64,000 nucleotides of DNA from a virus, in the IMG/VR virus record IMGVR_UViG_3300021599_000853, positions 1-64,000 of that record. One strand, written 5' to 3'. The first letter of the stretch is position 1. Each line of letters begins with the position of its first letter. Shown piece by piece: positions 42,530-50,957 of this stretch. Made by a program: the position numbers and the translations under genes. The notes beneath the pieces were generated by a model. That model was not told the DNA's origin, searched no databases, and was given only the letters and a program-made list of their open reading frames with translations.

Positions 42530-42674
42530 TTATTTTTCTAATAAAAGATTCACATAAAATCTTCTTATATAAATAGGCATATTTAAAATATCAGAATAGC
42601 TAAATCCCTTTTTAACTAAAAAAAGAATCTCATATAGTATATTTTTACTATAATCCGTAGAAAGCGCGAAAAAA
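42530..42674 (-). CDS. Frameshifted chaperone extension (tail assembly)
   Basis: A short open frame, absent from ordinary gene calls because it lacks an ATG, encodes YEILFLVKKGFSYSDILNMP followed by IYIRRFYVNLLLEK and a TAA at 42530-42532. It is in the +1 frame relative to the gp26-like gene. The frame is open only from 42688, and the run TTTTTT (42669-42674) lies in the overlap. A -2 or +1 slip there would add about 46 residues to the gp26-like protein (about 289 in all). Phage tail chaperone pairs such as lambda G/GT (-1) and Mu (-2) are made this way. The FSY...NMP...RR...LL pattern is typical of the second half. The slip itself is inferred. Confidence 0.7.
42565..42578 (-). promoter_or_regulatory. 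Late-promoter-like element before the tape measure
   Basis: GCCTATTTATATAA on the minus strand lies 41 bases before the tape measure ATG, inside the frameshift open frame. It is a variant of the element seen before other tail genes. Confidence 0.3.
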
Positions 42675-43397
42675 TTCAACCCCAAATCCTATATTATATT
42701 GGATTTCTTCTCCTGATGGGGTTTTTGCTTTTTGTAATAATGTTAATGATGGTTTATTTTCATTAACAAATTTTCTAAAATCTTGTGAATCTTTAATTGG
42801 TAATTTTTCTATAAAATTTTTTATAAACATAGGATCTCTGTTATCATTAACAGATTTTATCATAAATTCAAGTCTTTTTGTCATTATTGGGGGAGGACCA
42901 ACACCATTCCAATTTTTTTGTATTTCTTCTATTTCGTTTTCTTGTTTTTTGTTTATAAATTTAAATGTAATGTTGGTATTTGATTTTTGCATATAATATT
43001 TATATTCCCCTCTTTCATCCGAATTTAAATTAAAATCTTTAATTTTAACAATACTTAAATCACATGTGGTTTTAAATTCATTACCTGTTTTTGGGTCTAT
43101 TAATGTAACAATATAATCTGAACCAAAAGATGTATTCCTTAAAAATATTAAAATAGCGTTAACATCATCGTCAACTAATTCATCAACACTAATATCTTTA
43201 TCGAGTACTTTTCTTTTTAATAATTCATAAACAATATCTTTTGTTTTTGTTAAGTTTGGAGATGATAATATATTTTCGTCTGCCGCTGTTAGGTATGCCA
43301 CTCTTACGGATTTTTTATTATTTTCATAATATATTCCTTTAGATGGTAATTCAACAACGTCATATGCAATTGTTGGATCGATTTTAAATTCACTCAT
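42648..43397 (-). CDS. gp26: Baseplate hub/tail assembly protein, gp26-like
   Basis: This 249-residue protein matches the T4 gp26-type baseplate family pattern. It opens with VVELPSKGIYYE and VRVAYLTAADENILSSPNLT, followed by a KDIVYELLKRKV helix. ISVDELVDDDVNAILIFLRN and a SFGSDYIV strand complete the conserved block. The domain order is as in gp26. Position between tail tube and tape measure is where many phages encode the tape-measure chaperone. A frameshift-type open frame (42530-42674) continues beyond its stop. I therefore favour a chaperone role in addition to its gp26 resemblance. Confidence 0.75.
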   Translation of the reverse strand: MSEFKIDPTIAYDVVELPSKGIYYENNKKSVRVAYLTAADENILSSPNLTKTKDIVYELLKRKVLDKDISVDELVDDDVNAILIFLRNTSFGSDYIVTLIDPKTGNEFKTTCDLSIVKIKDFNLNSDERGEYKYYMQKSNTNITFKFINKKQENEIEEIQKNWNGVGPPPIMTKRLEFMIKSVNDNRDPMFIKNFIEKLPIKDSQDFRKFVNENKPSLTLLQKAKTPSGEEIQYNIGFGVEFFRAFYGL

Positions 43398-43488: not shown

Positions 43489-43977
43489 TTAATATACTAA
43501 TATACAACGATCCATTCTTAATGATGTTGATATGTTTGCAATATCATCTCTAGAATAATCTAAATCACCAAAATTCAAATCAGTTAAAAAACAACCTTGT
43601 AATATCCATTTTTCAACAACAACACCTGTTGGATCTAACATCTCCAATTCAACATCTTTTTTATACCCAGCCGCATAACCCATACGTCCAGTAACTGATT
43701 CTGCATGTAAACGAAACCATTCCATTAATGCTTGAGCCGCGGATGGTCCAATTGGATCTTTAAATGTTACTTTAATTTCATTCCATTCAAATCTACCAGC
43801 AACATATGTTGATGTATTAATAAATGGAATTGCAACTGAATTTATTTTAGCACTTGGTCTTGATGATGAAACAACATACCATTCATTAATACCTAAAGAC
43901 GAATCAAATCTTAAGATAAATCGGTTTACTCTCTTCGGTTCAAATGGAACCGGCATTTTCATTAGTAAATCTGCCAT
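43489..43977 (-). CDS. gp19: Tail tube protein, gp19-like
   Basis: This 162-residue protein has the gp19 tube signature. It contains NRFILRFDSSLGINEWYVVS, RPSAKINSVAIPF, FEWNEIKVTFKDPIGPSAAQ and a C-terminal WILQGCFLTDLNFGDLDYS block. T4 gp19 has 163 residues, so the length agrees. Gp19 hexamers stack to form the inner tail tube. The gene follows the sheath gene and is bounded by terminators on each side, with its own late-type element (44007-44024). This allows high, separate expression. Confidence 0.93.
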   Translation of the reverse strand: MADLLMKMPVPFEPKRVNRFILRFDSSLGINEWYVVSSSRPSAKINSVAIPFINTSTYVAGRFEWNEIKVTFKDPIGPSAAQALMEWFRLHAESVTGRMGYAAGYKKDVELEMLDPTGVVVEKWILQGCFLTDLNFGDLDYSRDDIANISTSLRMDRCILVY

Positions 43978-44289: not shown

Positions 44290-47121
44290 TTATATGTTTT
44301 CAAATGAAGCACCTGTAGGTGTAATTATGAATTGTAAATCAATAAATTCAAGAGATCTAGTTGGTTTTATGTAAATTTTACCTCTTAAAGTATTTGAATC
44401 CAGATCTTCAGGATCGTTTGATACTGTTACACGGAATTCATATAAACCTCTTTCCTTCTTGATAGATTCAAGTATTGGATTCACTAATCTCAAGAATTCA
44501 TTTCTTACTTGTTCGTCATTTTGTTCAAATAACAATCTAATTGCAACAGCGGATATTAGTTTTCTTGCTCTTAATAATAATCTTCTAACATTAATTCTAT
44601 CCAATGCAGATTCTCTTACTTGTAAAGTTTTATTACCCCAAATTATGGTTCCGGTATCAGAAAATGTTGCAATTGGGTTAATTCTATTCTTATACAATAA
44701 ATCTCTTTCATCTAAAGTTAATTTTTTAAATGCTTTAATTGAATTAACTAAACCTCTAGAATAACCGGCAACCGCGAACCAAGGATATGAAACATTATCA
44801 GTTAATGCGATATTTCTAACCACTTCACCTGTTGGTGGGATGTAAATTTGGGTAGCATTATCCCCATCTCTAATTTGTATCCAAGGCCAGTATGTTGCAG
44901 AATAGTTACTATCATAACCTAAATCTTCTAACATACCCACAACTTCTTCCGCATCACCAACATTTGGTGTGTTAATGATATATAAAGAATCCGCTCTATC
45001 TTCTTCAACCATATCAATCGCTTGATTTGTTAAAGAATTATGGTCATAAAAGTTCAATCCAGGTGTTGCGAATACATTTATATTTACCGCTTCAGGATTT
45101 GAAAATGTATTAATACCATTTAAGTAAGCGTAATAGTCAGAATTACCCTCATTTGTGTTAAAAACACCACCATTTGTTGTCCAGTTAGAAACATAGGTAT
45201 TTTTACCAAAAATATACTGATCGGTATTTGTTTTTACATTTCTGTATATATCCCAACCATCAAATCCACCATATGCTGCGAATGTGAATTTACGGAATGT
45301 AATATTTTGAAATTTACCTTTATTTAATCCTTCTAAATCATATGGTGTTGTTTTATATGTGGTACCAGTTATTGATGCTGCGTTTACTGATAAATGGAAA
45401 CCATGAGTTGTTGTATCTTCAGAACTTGATCCTTTGTATTTAAATAAATCTTCATCATATTTAAACCCAACTTGTGAAGATAAACCTAAAGAAACTTTTC
45501 TAACTTTATCTCCATTTGTTGTTTGTGGTGCACCATTAGATTCATAATAAACAATGTCTCCAGCATCAAAATATTCAGTTTTATACATCACACTACCTAA
45601 TGTAGAATTTGTACCAAATGAAGTATTACTTGCAAACCCTTTAAATCCAGCAGGAACCGCATCAATAGGTGCGTTTTCCATCATTTCTAACATTATATAT
45701 TTTGATTTTAATTCATATTCCCCATCACTCGTACCTATTCTTTTGGCAATATAACCAGGTAAATCAGGATCCATTGAACATCTTGAAAATTTCTCAATTC
45801 CAACAACATTTTCATCGGTGTCGTAAAAATCACGTACAATTATATCAAATTCTTTAGTGTCTAAATTTATGTTTTGTATTGATATTTTTACTTGTTCGTT
45901 TGACGCTTCACCATCAGATATTGTTATAACTTTGAAAAGATCAGCAACTTTACCACCACGTACTTCAGATACTACTGTTGGTGATAATGCTGTCCCCCAT
46001 CTTTCTACGAAATCATCACCATCTATGTTATAAACATCTGTTGTACTTAAACCTCTAACAAGACCCTGTTGATACAAGTTTTTCAATAAATTAGGATATG
46101 ATTCATGTACATATACAGGGAAGTCAACATATGATTTATCAAAAACAGAATTACCTAAAACTTTTGTAATGAATTTAGATGATGTGGTATCTAAACTACA
46201 GTCAAATGATTTTAAACCACCAGTTAAACCATTAACAACAATTTTAAATTCACTTAAGGGATCAGTATCAATTGTGGATGAAACAATACTAAAATTAGTT
46301 GAATTTGTTACCTCTAAAGTTAATGTTTGACCAACATACCTACCTCTAGATCTAAGTGCCACAACAATTACGTTTGCATATTCTGTGTTTAAAGATGCGG
46401 GGTATTTAAATCTTGTTATATTAAATGTACTTGTTGATTGGTTATATACAAAAAGATATGAATAAACACCATCAATTGTTGCATCATTACCTGGAGTAGT
46501 TTCTGTATAATAAATGTTATACCAATTCTTTTCATTGTAAATACCAATAGGTGAAACTAAACTAGTACCTGTCAATGGTACTGTTGCAGATGTTGGTACA
46601 GGACCAATTGTAAAGTAATCACCATTAGTAAATGTTGTTCCACTCACATATGATGGTATTGTAATACCATCGGTATTTAATTTATCTGATAATTCAGTAT
46701 AATAAGAACTACTAGTAACCGCTGTTGTAGACATCGTACTAGATCCCGATGTTGGTGTTGCGGTGGTATCAACTGTAACACCACCTAATGTTCTAATACC
46801 AAATGTATTATATGGTTTATAACCAGTTAAACCTAAAACTCTTGTTACAAATAATTGATTTGATTCTTGTAAATATGCTTTTGCGACATATCCCAATTCA
46901 TATTTTGGATTACCATTACCATCTTTTTCTGGTGATGTTGTACCGAAATACGTTCTAAATTCATCAAAATTTGTTATTAAAACTGGTTCGAAAGCGGGTC
47001 CTTTTAAAGTTTCACCCACTAAACCTAAAGTAGTCACACCAACGCTCTGTGCGACAAATGTTAAATCTAATTCTGAGGTATATACACCTGGAGACACAAA
47101 TACTCTGTTTGAAGTAGCCAT
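44290..47121 (-). CDS. gp18: Tail sheath protein, gp18-like
   Basis: This 943-residue protein has the tail sheath signature at both ends. The N terminus reads VFVSPGVYTSELDLTF with TTLGLVGETLKGPAFEPVLI. The C terminus has LDRINVRRLLLRARKLISAV, FRVTVSNDPEDLDSNTL and the closing strand RSLEFIDLQFIITP. T4 gp18 has 659 residues. The extra length lies in the middle (about 120-650) as inserted domains that probably protrude from the sheath surface, including a Thr/Ser-rich patch near 118-140. Sheath subunits contract to drive the tube through the host envelope. The gene has its own late-type element and terminator. Confidence 0.93.
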   Translation of the reverse strand: MATSNRVFVSPGVYTSELDLTFVAQSVGVTTLGLVGETLKGPAFEPVLITNFDEFRTYFGTTSPEKDGNGNPKYELGYVAKAYLQESNQLFVTRVLGLTGYKPYNTFGIRTLGGVTVDTTATPTSGSSTMSTTAVTSSSYYTELSDKLNTDGITIPSYVSGTTFTNGDYFTIGPVPTSATVPLTGTSLVSPIGIYNEKNWYNIYYTETTPGNDATIDGVYSYLFVYNQSTSTFNITRFKYPASLNTEYANVIVVALRSRGRYVGQTLTLEVTNSTNFSIVSSTIDTDPLSEFKIVVNGLTGGLKSFDCSLDTTSSKFITKVLGNSVFDKSYVDFPVYVHESYPNLLKNLYQQGLVRGLSTTDVYNIDGDDFVERWGTALSPTVVSEVRGGKVADLFKVITISDGEASNEQVKISIQNINLDTKEFDIIVRDFYDTDENVVGIEKFSRCSMDPDLPGYIAKRIGTSDGEYELKSKYIMLEMMENAPIDAVPAGFKGFASNTSFGTNSTLGSVMYKTEYFDAGDIVYYESNGAPQTTNGDKVRKVSLGLSSQVGFKYDEDLFKYKGSSSEDTTTHGFHLSVNAASITGTTYKTTPYDLEGLNKGKFQNITFRKFTFAAYGGFDGWDIYRNVKTNTDQYIFGKNTYVSNWTTNGGVFNTNEGNSDYYAYLNGINTFSNPEAVNINVFATPGLNFYDHNSLTNQAIDMVEEDRADSLYIINTPNVGDAEEVVGMLEDLGYDSNYSATYWPWIQIRDGDNATQIYIPPTGEVVRNIALTDNVSYPWFAVAGYSRGLVNSIKAFKKLTLDERDLLYKNRINPIATFSDTGTIIWGNKTLQVRESALDRINVRRLLLRARKLISAVAIRLLFEQNDEQVRNEFLRLVNPILESIKKERGLYEFRVTVSNDPEDLDSNTLRGKIYIKPTRSLEFIDLQFIITPTGASFENI

Positions 47122-49205: not shown

Positions 49206-50957
49206 ATGCAAAAAAATATACCAGAAATTGAGGCTAAAGAAATATTATCCACTTACGAAGGGTATAATAATCAATTATTAGAATGGAAAGATAAATTTAT
49301 TAATTTAAAAAATTTTAAATTAACAAGACCACAATCCGATTATGTAATAAAATACCATATGATAAAACCTAAGGTCGCTAAAAAATATTTAAATTTAGTA
49401 CCAAGTTTTGGTGAAAAAATAAGAGAAGATAAATTATTACCTAAAGTACCTGAAAAAATTTGGTGTGAAAAATTATTATGCGAAACAGAAAAAGCTTATC
49501 ATATTTGGGGTAAAATTTTAGACACCGAACAAAATTACGCATTTTGGTTACCTAAAGGTGCGATACTACAAGAAGAAAAAAAATTAGATAGAGTTATTGA
49601 TTATTCTAAATACGAAAAAAGACCACCTATGGAACATCAGAAAGTGGCAATTGAAAAATTATTGGCGAATAATAAATTTATTTTAGCGGATGATATGGGG
49701 TTGGGTAAAACTACGTCTGCTGTGATCGCCTCATTAGAATCTGAAGCAAAAAAAATACTGATTGTTTGTCCCGCATCACTTAAAATAAATTGGGAAAGAG
49801 AAATTAAAAATTATAGTGATAGAAAAATATTAATTGTTGAAGGTCGTAAATGGGGATCAACATTTGATTATTATATCATAAATTATGATATTATTAAAAA
49901 TTATCACACAACAGAAAATGGTGAAAATAGTGACGATTATAAATTATTAGAAAACGCGGGTTTCGATTTAGCAATAGTTGATGAAGCACATTATATATCA
50001 AACAATACAGCACAAAGAACAAGATTATTAAACGATATTCTTGGAAAAATACCAAAAGTTTGGTTATTAACGGGTACTCCTATGACATCAAGACCAATAA
50101 ATTATTATAATCTTCTAAAACTTGTTGATTCACCATTAACATTAAATTGGCAACATTATGTTTACAGATATTGTAAAGGTTATCAATTTAGGGTGGGTAA
50201 TAGAAAAGTCTGGAATACAAGTGGAGCTAGTAATTTGGATGAATTACGTGAGAGAACAAAAAATATTGTTTTAAGAAGAATGAAAACAGATATTCTTGAT
50301 CTACCTGAAAAAATAATAACTCCTGTTTTCTTAGATCTAAAAAGTACTTTCTATAATGAAGAATTAGAAGAATTTATGAGGATCAGTAAAGAAAACAAAA
50401 AAGAAGAAAGTTTGAGTGTTACAATAAATCGTTTAATGAAAGTTAGACAAGTTATTGCTCAAGAAAAAGTACCATACACTTGTGAATTAATTGATAAGTT
50501 TTTAGAACAAGACAAGAAGGTAATTGTGTTTACAAATTTCACAAATACTTTAGAAATGATACAAGAAAAATACAAAAAAAATTCAGTTATTTTAGATGGT
50601 CGTATGTCTAAAATAAAAAGACAAGAAAGTGTTGATAGGTTTCAAAATGAAGATAAAATAAAGGTTTTTATTTCAAATATTGTCGCTGGCGGTGTGGGAA
50701 TTACATTGACTGCGGCGGAAGGTGTTATTATGAATGATTTATCATTTGTACCCGCTCATCATTCACAGGCGGAAGATAGGGCATATAGATATGGGCAAAA
50801 AAATAGTGTTCTCGTATATTATCCAATATTTGAAAATACTATAGAAATGATAGTATATAATATTCTAAATAAGAAAAAAGGTATTATAGATCAAGTTATG
50901 GGTGATGGTGAATATTCCGAAAACTTTACTACTGAACTTTTAAGCTCAATTCTTTAA
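49206..50957 (+). CDS. SNF2-family (SMARCAL1-like) helicase
   Basis: This 583-residue SF2 translocase is on the plus strand. It has the full motif set: Q-like PPMEHQKVAIEKL (about 139-151), Walker A DDMGLGKTT (about 161-169), DEAH (about 259-262), motif III WLLTGTPM (about 288-295), motif V GGVGITLT and motif VI AEDRAYRYGQ (about 521-530). The Gly-rich SNF2 spacing and RAYRYGQ put it in the SMARCAL1/RapA-like group. Such enzymes remodel forks and anneal DNA. T4 UvsW fills a related role as a DExD/H helicase, so it may substitute for UvsW. Expression from the opposite strand to the replication genes suggests separate timing. Confidence 0.88.
   Translation: MQKNIPEIEAKEILSTYEGYNNQLLEWKDKFINLKNFKLTRPQSDYVIKYHMIKPKVAKKYLNLVPSFGEKIREDKLLPKVPEKIWCEKLLCETEKAYHIWGKILDTEQNYAFWLPKGAILQEEKKLDRVIDYSKYEKRPPMEHQKVAIEKLLANNKFILADDMGLGKTTSAVIASLESEAKKILIVCPASLKINWEREIKNYSDRKILIVEGRKWGSTFDYYIINYDIIKNYHTTENGENSDDYKLLENAGFDLAIVDEAHYISNNTAQRTRLLNDILGKIPKVWLLTGTPMTSRPINYYNLLKLVDSPLTLNWQHYVYRYCKGYQFRVGNRKVWNTSGASNLDELRERTKNIVLRRMKTDILDLPEKIITPVFLDLKSTFYNEELEEFMRISKENKKEESLSVTINRLMKVRQVIAQEKVPYTCELIDKFLEQDKKVIVFTNFTNTLEMIQEKYKKNSVILDGRMSKIKRQESVDRFQNEDKIKVFISNIVAGGVGITLTAAEGVIMNDLSFVPAHHSQAEDRAYRYGQKNSVLVYYPIFENTIEMIVYNILNKKKGIIDQVMGDGEYSENFTTELLSSIL

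Follow-up and report, generated by a model that had tools for sequence, protein, structure and literature searches.

Tail assembly chaperones extended by programmed frameshifting are a known kind of phage protein, with +1 and -2 variants of the shift also described, and T4 is a named exception to the conserved G/GT frameshifting (PMC5009743). In T4, gp26 and gp51 are listed as hub assembly chaperones, gp51 being essential and of unknown function (PMC3004832), and the gp51 proteins of cyanophages and marine vibriophages were reported to lack the first ~200 residues and to be similar at the C-terminus (PMC3037559). With regard to stimulators, 5' mRNA structure is said to stimulate bypassing "and perhaps" at least +1 frameshifting, the +1 stimulation by a SARS-coronavirus stem having been reported with synthetic constructs only (PMC5009743), while +1 frameshifting of 70S ribosomes at a hungry codon was stimulated by a hairpin adjacent to the E site, in the manner of an internal Shine-Dalgarno (SD) duplex (PMC6321510). 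The stretch analysed here (the window), from an uncultured T4-like phage, comprises 64,000 nucleotides (nt), positions 1 to 64,000 of the IMG/VR virus record IMGVR_UViG_3300021599_000853, and carries a gp26-like gene coding for 249 amino acids (aa), the 3' end of which is overlapped by a +1 reading frame coding for a C-terminal extension.

Comparison of the window with its relatives strongly supports a programmed frameshift that would give a C-terminally extended tail chaperone according to the lambda G/GT logic, as had been proposed in the first-pass annotation made by a model from the letters of the window; the arrangement is conserved in hundreds of relatives. The favoured explanation, to which we assign a probability of about 0.8, is a +1 programmed frameshift by which one gene would give tail chaperone forms of 249 and 288 aa in a set ratio. 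The zero-frame gene ends with GGG GTT GAA TTT TTT CGC GCT TTC TAC GGA TTA TAG, and the overlapping frame, which is +1 or -2 relative to it, is open from position 42688, just after a TAG, to its own TAA and encodes FALSTDYSKNILYEILFLVKKGFSYSDILNMPIYIRRFYVNLLLEK; these boundaries, as well as those of the gene and of the run of six T (T6), had been given correctly in the first-pass annotation (Table 1). There is exactly one in-frame TTTC in the gene, and a +1 step on TTT-C makes the fusion of 288 aa continuous. The zero-frame protein matches PF12322 (T4_baseplate) with E 1e-6 (29.1 bits against a cut-off of 24.5) and phrog_150 ("baseplate hub") with E 1.5e-11 over positions 16-233 of 282. Its AlphaFold2 (AF2) model, built for the 249-aa protein alone, has a predicted local distance difference test score of 85 and resembles baseplate hub assembly proteins of Bacillus phage SP-15 and T4-like phages. 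Weak matches to Rab-8A in a PDB profile search were taken as chance. The extension of the window on its own gave no useful match in Pfam or PHROG.

The first IMG/VR search returned 18 loci with proteins 59-100% identical, and in 18 of 18 the zero-frame stop lies at the same place with the same extension in +1. A profile search returned at least 583 relatives, the best 80 of which were examined together with the first 18; all 98 loci (proteins 58-100% identical) have the same arrangement, +1 throughout, which for the wider set means all 59 unique junctions plus six loci missed by the search pattern. A search starting from a divergent member gave +1 in 31 of 31. Among the 63 unique extensions, which have a mean amino-acid identity of 67%, substitutions at codon positions 1, 2 and 3 make up 28, 17 and 55%, a distribution of the coding type, and the first residues are conserved (A/V-LST-D/E-Y). 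Seventeen of the 63 members have no ATG, GTG or TTG between the +1-frame stop and the sixth codon of the extension. Given the conserved frame, the coding-type change and these 17 members without a possible start codon, an error, a chance arrangement or a separate gene is unlikely. A sequencing error or a pseudogene was ruled out, as the arrangement is kept in well over 100 contigs. The first-pass annotation had suggested comparing the overlap across related phages and named two findings that would speak against a frameshift, namely that the extension of relatives is random sequence or an independent gene with a start codon; neither was seen in the +1 relatives.

At the putative slip site, all 109 unique segments have TTT as the second Phe codon and C as the base after it; the pattern used to collect the segments itself required TTTC, and the protein-based searches, which are free of that bias, agree. 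The first Phe codon is TTC in three loci (L016, L030 and L081, with TTC TTT C), which nevertheless keep the frame relation, so the T6 run, taken as the key element in the first-pass annotation, is itself dispensable. The key role would fall instead to TTT in the P site with the C behind it, to a rare codon in the A site and to an RNA stem farther upstream. Most relatives have CGC in the A site, the others CGT, CGA, CGG or CTC. Elsewhere in the window CGC occurs once among 20,234 other codons, and it stands at the site in 44 of 64 unique relatives as against none of the 559 Arg codons upstream in the same genes. Re-pairing as such requires the C after TTT, and the other two bases of the A-site codon have a second duty in the +1 frame (Ala, Val or Asp); an effect of the rare codon, with slowness deduced from rarity, is for these reasons likely without being proven. 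What is expected of a programmed +1 site is a P-site codon that can re-pair one base forward, next to a slow A-site codon, and TTT-C is present in all members. The first-pass annotation had allowed for a -2 or a +1 slip; the shift is best read as +1, since TTC TTT C destroys the re-pairing of TTT with TTT yet keeps that of TTT with TTC, and a sister clade described below has YTT T.

Upstream of the site, RNAalifold predicts a stem in which an invariant GGGG just 5' of the slip site pairs with CCCC about 38 nt upstream. The model starts with ACCCCR, continues with a bulge of 11 nt that contains TCAGGAGA and with the inner stem AATCCAA...TTGGATT, and closes with YGGGGU; the outer helix is separated from the T6 run by 4 nt and from the P-site TTT by 7 nt. 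In 57 sequences 92.0% of cells are paired, as compared to at most 61.5% with slid partners, and changes on both sides were counted in 23 cells against 10.1 +/- 2.2 after shuffling (0 of 500 shuffles reach 23). The outer stem has four C-G pairs in all 57 rows, and its sixth pair joins two synonymous third positions (Pro CCN and Phe TTY), found as A-U 29, G-C 19, A-C 5 and G-U 2 times, with covariation at Fisher p 2e-8, a value not corrected for relatedness. The Gly codon at the stem is GGG in 64 of 64 unique relatives versus 11% of Gly codons upstream in the same genes. The inner stem has compensatory variants, such as AGTTGA/TCAACT in L043. No match for the RNA element was found in Rfam, and no downstream stimulatory structure was found in the window's clade (columns after the site z 0.0; also z -0.2).

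Two other uses of this region were considered and rejected. A hairpin enclosing the slip site (GGGGU.GAA/UUC.GCCCU) is scored in RNAalifold, but the window cannot form one of its pairs, and preference was given to the upstream stem. An internal SD formed by GGGG would end 8 nt before the P-site codon (3 nt in the RF2 type), the GGGG pairs with CCCC, and SDs are near-absent in the window, nearly all genes of which are without such sites. SD scarcity is usual for phages of Bacteroidota. A distant homolog of the gp26 family (33% identity) was found in the 75-kb contig JAFSKR010000029.1, probably a phage contig, which is binned with a metagenome-assembled genome of Bacteroidaceae; this gives a weak hint at a Bacteroidota host range. 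The bulge motif TCAGGAGA (window 42706-42716 and its equivalents in L001-L099) is conserved beyond coding need and resembles the SD sequence AGGAG.

The proposed course of events is as follows. The majority of ribosomes would complete the 249-aa gp26-type protein, and a fraction would stall at the very rare CGC in the A site while the P site holds tRNA-Phe paired with TTT. The mRNA emerging behind the ribosome would then refold into the ACCCCR/YGGGGU stem stacked on the inner hairpin, against the mRNA exit side, which would favour forward movement. The tRNA-Phe would re-pair from UUU to UUC, and reading on in +1 would yield the 288-aa form with its 45-aa extension and the junction peptide ...GVEFFALSTDYSK, which would also result from the loss of one U. 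On the model of lambda gpG/gpGT, both forms would serve as tail assembly chaperones for the tape measure and the tube.

The family includes a second clade with +1 extensions, represented by Flavobacterium phage immuto, Microcystis phage Mel-JY01 and hundreds of contigs. The immuto-like search returned at least 600 stretches, 80 of which were kept, with data for 79, and the extension is in +1 in 78 of these. The site reads TTT YTT TGG CCT GAC, with TTT (59) or CTT (19) in the P site and TGG (72), TAC (4) or TTC (2) in the A site (n=78). All the A-site codons begin with T, so YUU can re-pair with UUU, and TGG makes up 0.03% of other codons in these genes. Both clades pair a P-site codon that can move forward with an otherwise almost unused codon. 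Extensions in +1 are also present in Bacillus phage SP-15 (TTT TTT CAC), Rhodothermus phage RM378 and LR756508 (TTT CTA). Hairpins of 7-8 base pairs (bp) lie a few nt 5' of the +1 slip site in LR756508, Mel-JY01 and SP-15 (L106, L105 and L116) in single-sequence folds, not significant against shuffles.

In 12 named phages, jumbo phages and a cyanophage among them, the extension is in -1, with a slippery T TTT TTC or T TTT TTT in the zero frame at the corresponding place: Stenotrophomonas phage RAS14, Xanthomonas phages XacN1 and XaC1, Agrobacterium phage Atu_ph07, Pseudomonas phage PA5oct, Serratia phage BF, Salmonella phage Munch, Klebsiella phage RaK2, Cronobacter phage GAP32, Vibrio phage VmeM-32, Synechococcus phage S-CAM22 and Variovorax phage V45v66. 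The usual -1 stimulator is a downstream hairpin, and strong ones were found in Atu_ph07 (z -6.7) and XacN1 (z -4.5). In Synechococcus phage S-SCSM1 (L122:2187-2374) the extension is in +1 relative to gp26 and the -1 frame hits a stop, whereas the cyanophage S-CAM22 has -1; a sequence error or a real switch of direction may account for the difference. In Pseudomonas phage Cygsa01 (L124:1809-1982) the frame homologous to the extension begins at an ATG that shares bases with the stop of gp26 (TAATG), possibly a step between a frameshift extension and an independent gene.

The relation to the T4 proteins was examined at the level of profiles. PF12322 includes both T4 gp26 (208 aa; E 9e-64) and T4 gp51 (249 aa; E 4e-52), which cover positions 14-235 and 13-280, respectively, of the 282 of phrog_150. 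The C-terminus of gp26, ...GLKEFFELL, coincides with the position of the shift, and there is no extension frame behind it. The profile of the fused family matches that of gp51 (Prob 98.0, E 1.4e-13) in an alignment running through the extension, and the cyanophage and vibriophage extensions match phrog_634, the gp51 family (E 6e-31 and 1e-7). The extension of the window alone, too short and diverged for significance, aligns with gp51 at pairwise E 0.005 and Prob 3. T4 may therefore make its short and long forms from two genes, gp26 without the extension and gp51 with the extension in frame, and we infer that one frameshifted gene may have been split or duplicated in T4. Likewise, the "truncated gp51" of cyanophages may be the frameshift extension of gp26; in S-SCSM1 such an extension is annotated as a gene. 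It is somewhat probable, though less firmly held than the +1 shift itself, that the family as a whole combines a natural +1 shift, in which an upstream hairpin replaces the SD duplex in SD-poor phages, with switching between +1 and -1 from clade to clade and a split into gp26 and gp51 in T4. Use of a hairpin where others have an SD duplex would be in keeping with a Bacteroidota host, the phage genes being mostly without SD sites.

Several observations weigh against the favoured explanation or parts of it. The sequences are related, and the counts are not independent; part of the nucleotide conservation around the site could stem from the two overlapping reading frames. Folded as a single sequence, the stem of the window scores only a little better than shuffled sequences (z -1.7), and in the wider set the inner stem pairs less regularly. 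In the immuto-like clade no conserved upstream or downstream structure was found, so the stem is not essential for +1 shifting in the family. A Foldseek search of the PDB with the modelled zero-frame protein gave nothing with E <0.001, the HK97 chaperone 2ob9 appearing at E 1.8; the likeness to known tail chaperones is accordingly claimed for the way of working and not for homology. The first-pass annotation took the next gene to be the tape measure, which is plausible but unproven: the 639-aa product has no Pfam or PHROG match, but it has the place of a tape measure and, with 583 to 892 aa in relatives, also the variable length, and Flavobacterium phage immuto and Bacillus phage SP-15 have a gene annotated as such in the same place.

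It is possible, although rather unlikely, that the frameshift is real and its products are baseplate-hub assembly factors and not tape-measure/tube chaperones of the lambda G/GT type. The PHROG and Pfam names refer to the baseplate hub, as does the description of T4 gp26 and gp51 as hub assembly chaperones (PMC3004832). However, the gene order of tube, chaperone and a long gene of variable length, the late frameshift and the shared N-terminal part correspond to the lambda pattern, and the two roles are not exclusive, T4 tape measure gp29 itself being counted as a hub protein (PMC3004832).

The main rival to a ribosomal shift is transcriptional slippage, in which a nascent hairpin would make RNA polymerase drop one U in T6, so that some mRNAs would encode the fusion in frame; we consider it improbable. 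The same peptide would be expected as from the +1 ribosomal slip, and a hairpin followed by 4 nt and U6 would lie at the edge of the 9-10 bp RNA-DNA hybrid. In the original work on a Roseiflexus insertion sequence, slippage reportedly loses one base. Hairpin-dependent slippage is documented at that insertion sequence (PMC5009743). However, the TTCTTTC of L016, L030 and L081 would give a mismatched shifted hybrid, and the frame relation is still kept there; there is no T run in 19 of 78 immuto-like members (TTT CTT TGG), nor in LR756508 (TTT CTA); and slippage gives no role to selection for the rare CGC or TGG.

That the extension is a small protein made independently, through re-initiation or a start codon other than ATG, has a very low probability: TTG is available at 42685, the homologous frame of Cygsa01 has its ATG, and annotators listed the extension as a gene of its own in several phages, but the first residues are conserved even though 17 of the 63 unique relatives lack any such start before the sixth codon. 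Least probable of all is a Mu-like -2 ribosomal shift with TTT re-pairing in T6, which would reach the extension frame with the junction peptide ...GVEFFFALSTDYSK and for which most members have T6, since tandem re-pairing is possible neither on TTC TTT nor on CTT TGG of the second clade, and both the conservation of the C behind TTT and the rarity of the A-site codon suit +1.

Table 1 Features of the gp26-like locus and neighbouring tail genes in the window
Feature	Position	Strand	Basis
Zero-frame gene, gp26/T4_baseplate-family tail assembly (baseplate hub) chaperone, 249 aa, C-terminus ...GVEFFRAFYGL*	42648..43397	-	PF12322, phrog_150, AF2
Putative +1-frame C-terminal extension, 45 codons, ALSTDYSKNILYEILFLVKKGFSYSDILNMPIYIRRFYVNLLLEK	42533..42667	-	+1 in whole clade; fused-family profile vs T4 gp51
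TAA stop of extension	42530..42532	-	sequence
T6 run (two Phe codons)	42669..42674	-	TTT TTT in 106/109 unique segments, TTC TTT in 3
P-site codon TTT, putative one-base-forward re-pairing with TTC at 42668-42670	42669..42671	-	TTT in 109/109 unique relatives
Rare A-site codon CGC, putative slow or "hungry" codon	42666..42668	-	codon counts in window and relatives
Outer RNA stem, 5' arm ACCCCA	42717..42722	-	RNAalifold, pair counts
11-nt bulge TCAGGAGAAGA, conserved motif TCAGGAGA	42706..42716	-	motif in 88% of 109 unique segments
Inner RNA stem, 5' arm AATCCAA	42699..42705	-	87% of cells paired; compensatory variants
Inner RNA stem, 3' arm TAGGATT	42685..42691	-	one A.A mismatch in window
Outer RNA stem, 3' arm TGGGGT	42679..42684	-	GGG Gly codon in 64/64 unique relatives
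Downstream gene, putative tape measure protein, 639 aa	40604..42523	-	position and variable length in relatives
Upstream gene, tail tube protein (gp19 type)	43489..43977	-	phrog_4542 tail tube, E 2.8e-28
Tail sheath (gp18 type)	44290..47121	-	phrog_23, E 9.2e-63

Beyond the tail genes, and opposite to them on the plus strand, the window contains an open reading frame of 583 aa (49206-50957) resembling SNF2/DEAD-type helicases, named by its motifs only (DDMGLGKT, DEAH).

In the literature examined, the coverage of which was incomplete, no paper was found linking frameshifting to gp26/gp51. As far as seen, the new elements are the recognition of gp26-type proteins as a frameshifted family whose clades would use either +1 or -1, the rare codons at the +1 sites, the covariation in the stem upstream, and a connection with T4 gp26/gp51 as well as with the short gp51 of cyanophages. 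If T4 gp26 and gp51 correspond to the short and long forms that frameshifting would give in relatives, the T4 exception would be explained and the roles of both proteins would become testable, and the cyanophage and marine vibriophage "gp51" without its first ~200 residues (PMC3037559) would be the frameshifted part of gp26, overlooked by annotation. An upstream stem of this type as a +1 stimulator was found in the literature for synthetic constructs only, and together with the rare A-site codon it would be a natural example of such a stimulator. A single family with both -1 and +1 shifts also offers a natural comparison of the two signals.

Compared to lambda gpG/gpGT, the locus likewise has two overlapping frames between the tail tube gene and the gene in the tape-measure position, with a late shift that would append a short C-terminal domain and an arrangement conserved across relatives; it differs in belonging to the gp26/T4_baseplate family of a contractile T4-like tail and in the proposed +1 shift on TTT-C with a rare codon and an upstream stem, whereas lambda uses -1 on a heptamer. 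With T4 it shares the Pfam/PHROG family and a gp51 C-terminal extension that aligns with the frameshift extension, but T4 has two genes without a frameshift and here both forms would come from one gene. E. coli prfB (RF2) has a similar combination of a +1 P-site slip, a slow A site and an upstream duplex, the slip being CUU to UUU in prfB, a change also used by the immuto clade, and UUU to UUC here; in contrast to prfB, the proposed duplex lies inside the mRNA instead of being an internal SD, and the shift is not autoregulatory. The synthetic upstream-hairpin +1 systems (PMC6321510; the SARS-CoV attenuator element) also combine a hairpin just 5' of the shift site with a hungry A-site codon, but they are reporter constructs, whereas the present case is apparently natural and conserved. 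Finally, +1 shifts in phage structural or tail genes are known from Listeria phage PSA and the HSTV-2 tail chaperone (PMC5009743); those of PSA occur on proline codons in capsid and tail shaft genes, and HSTV-2 is an archaeal virus in which the +1 shift was only inferred (PMC5009743).
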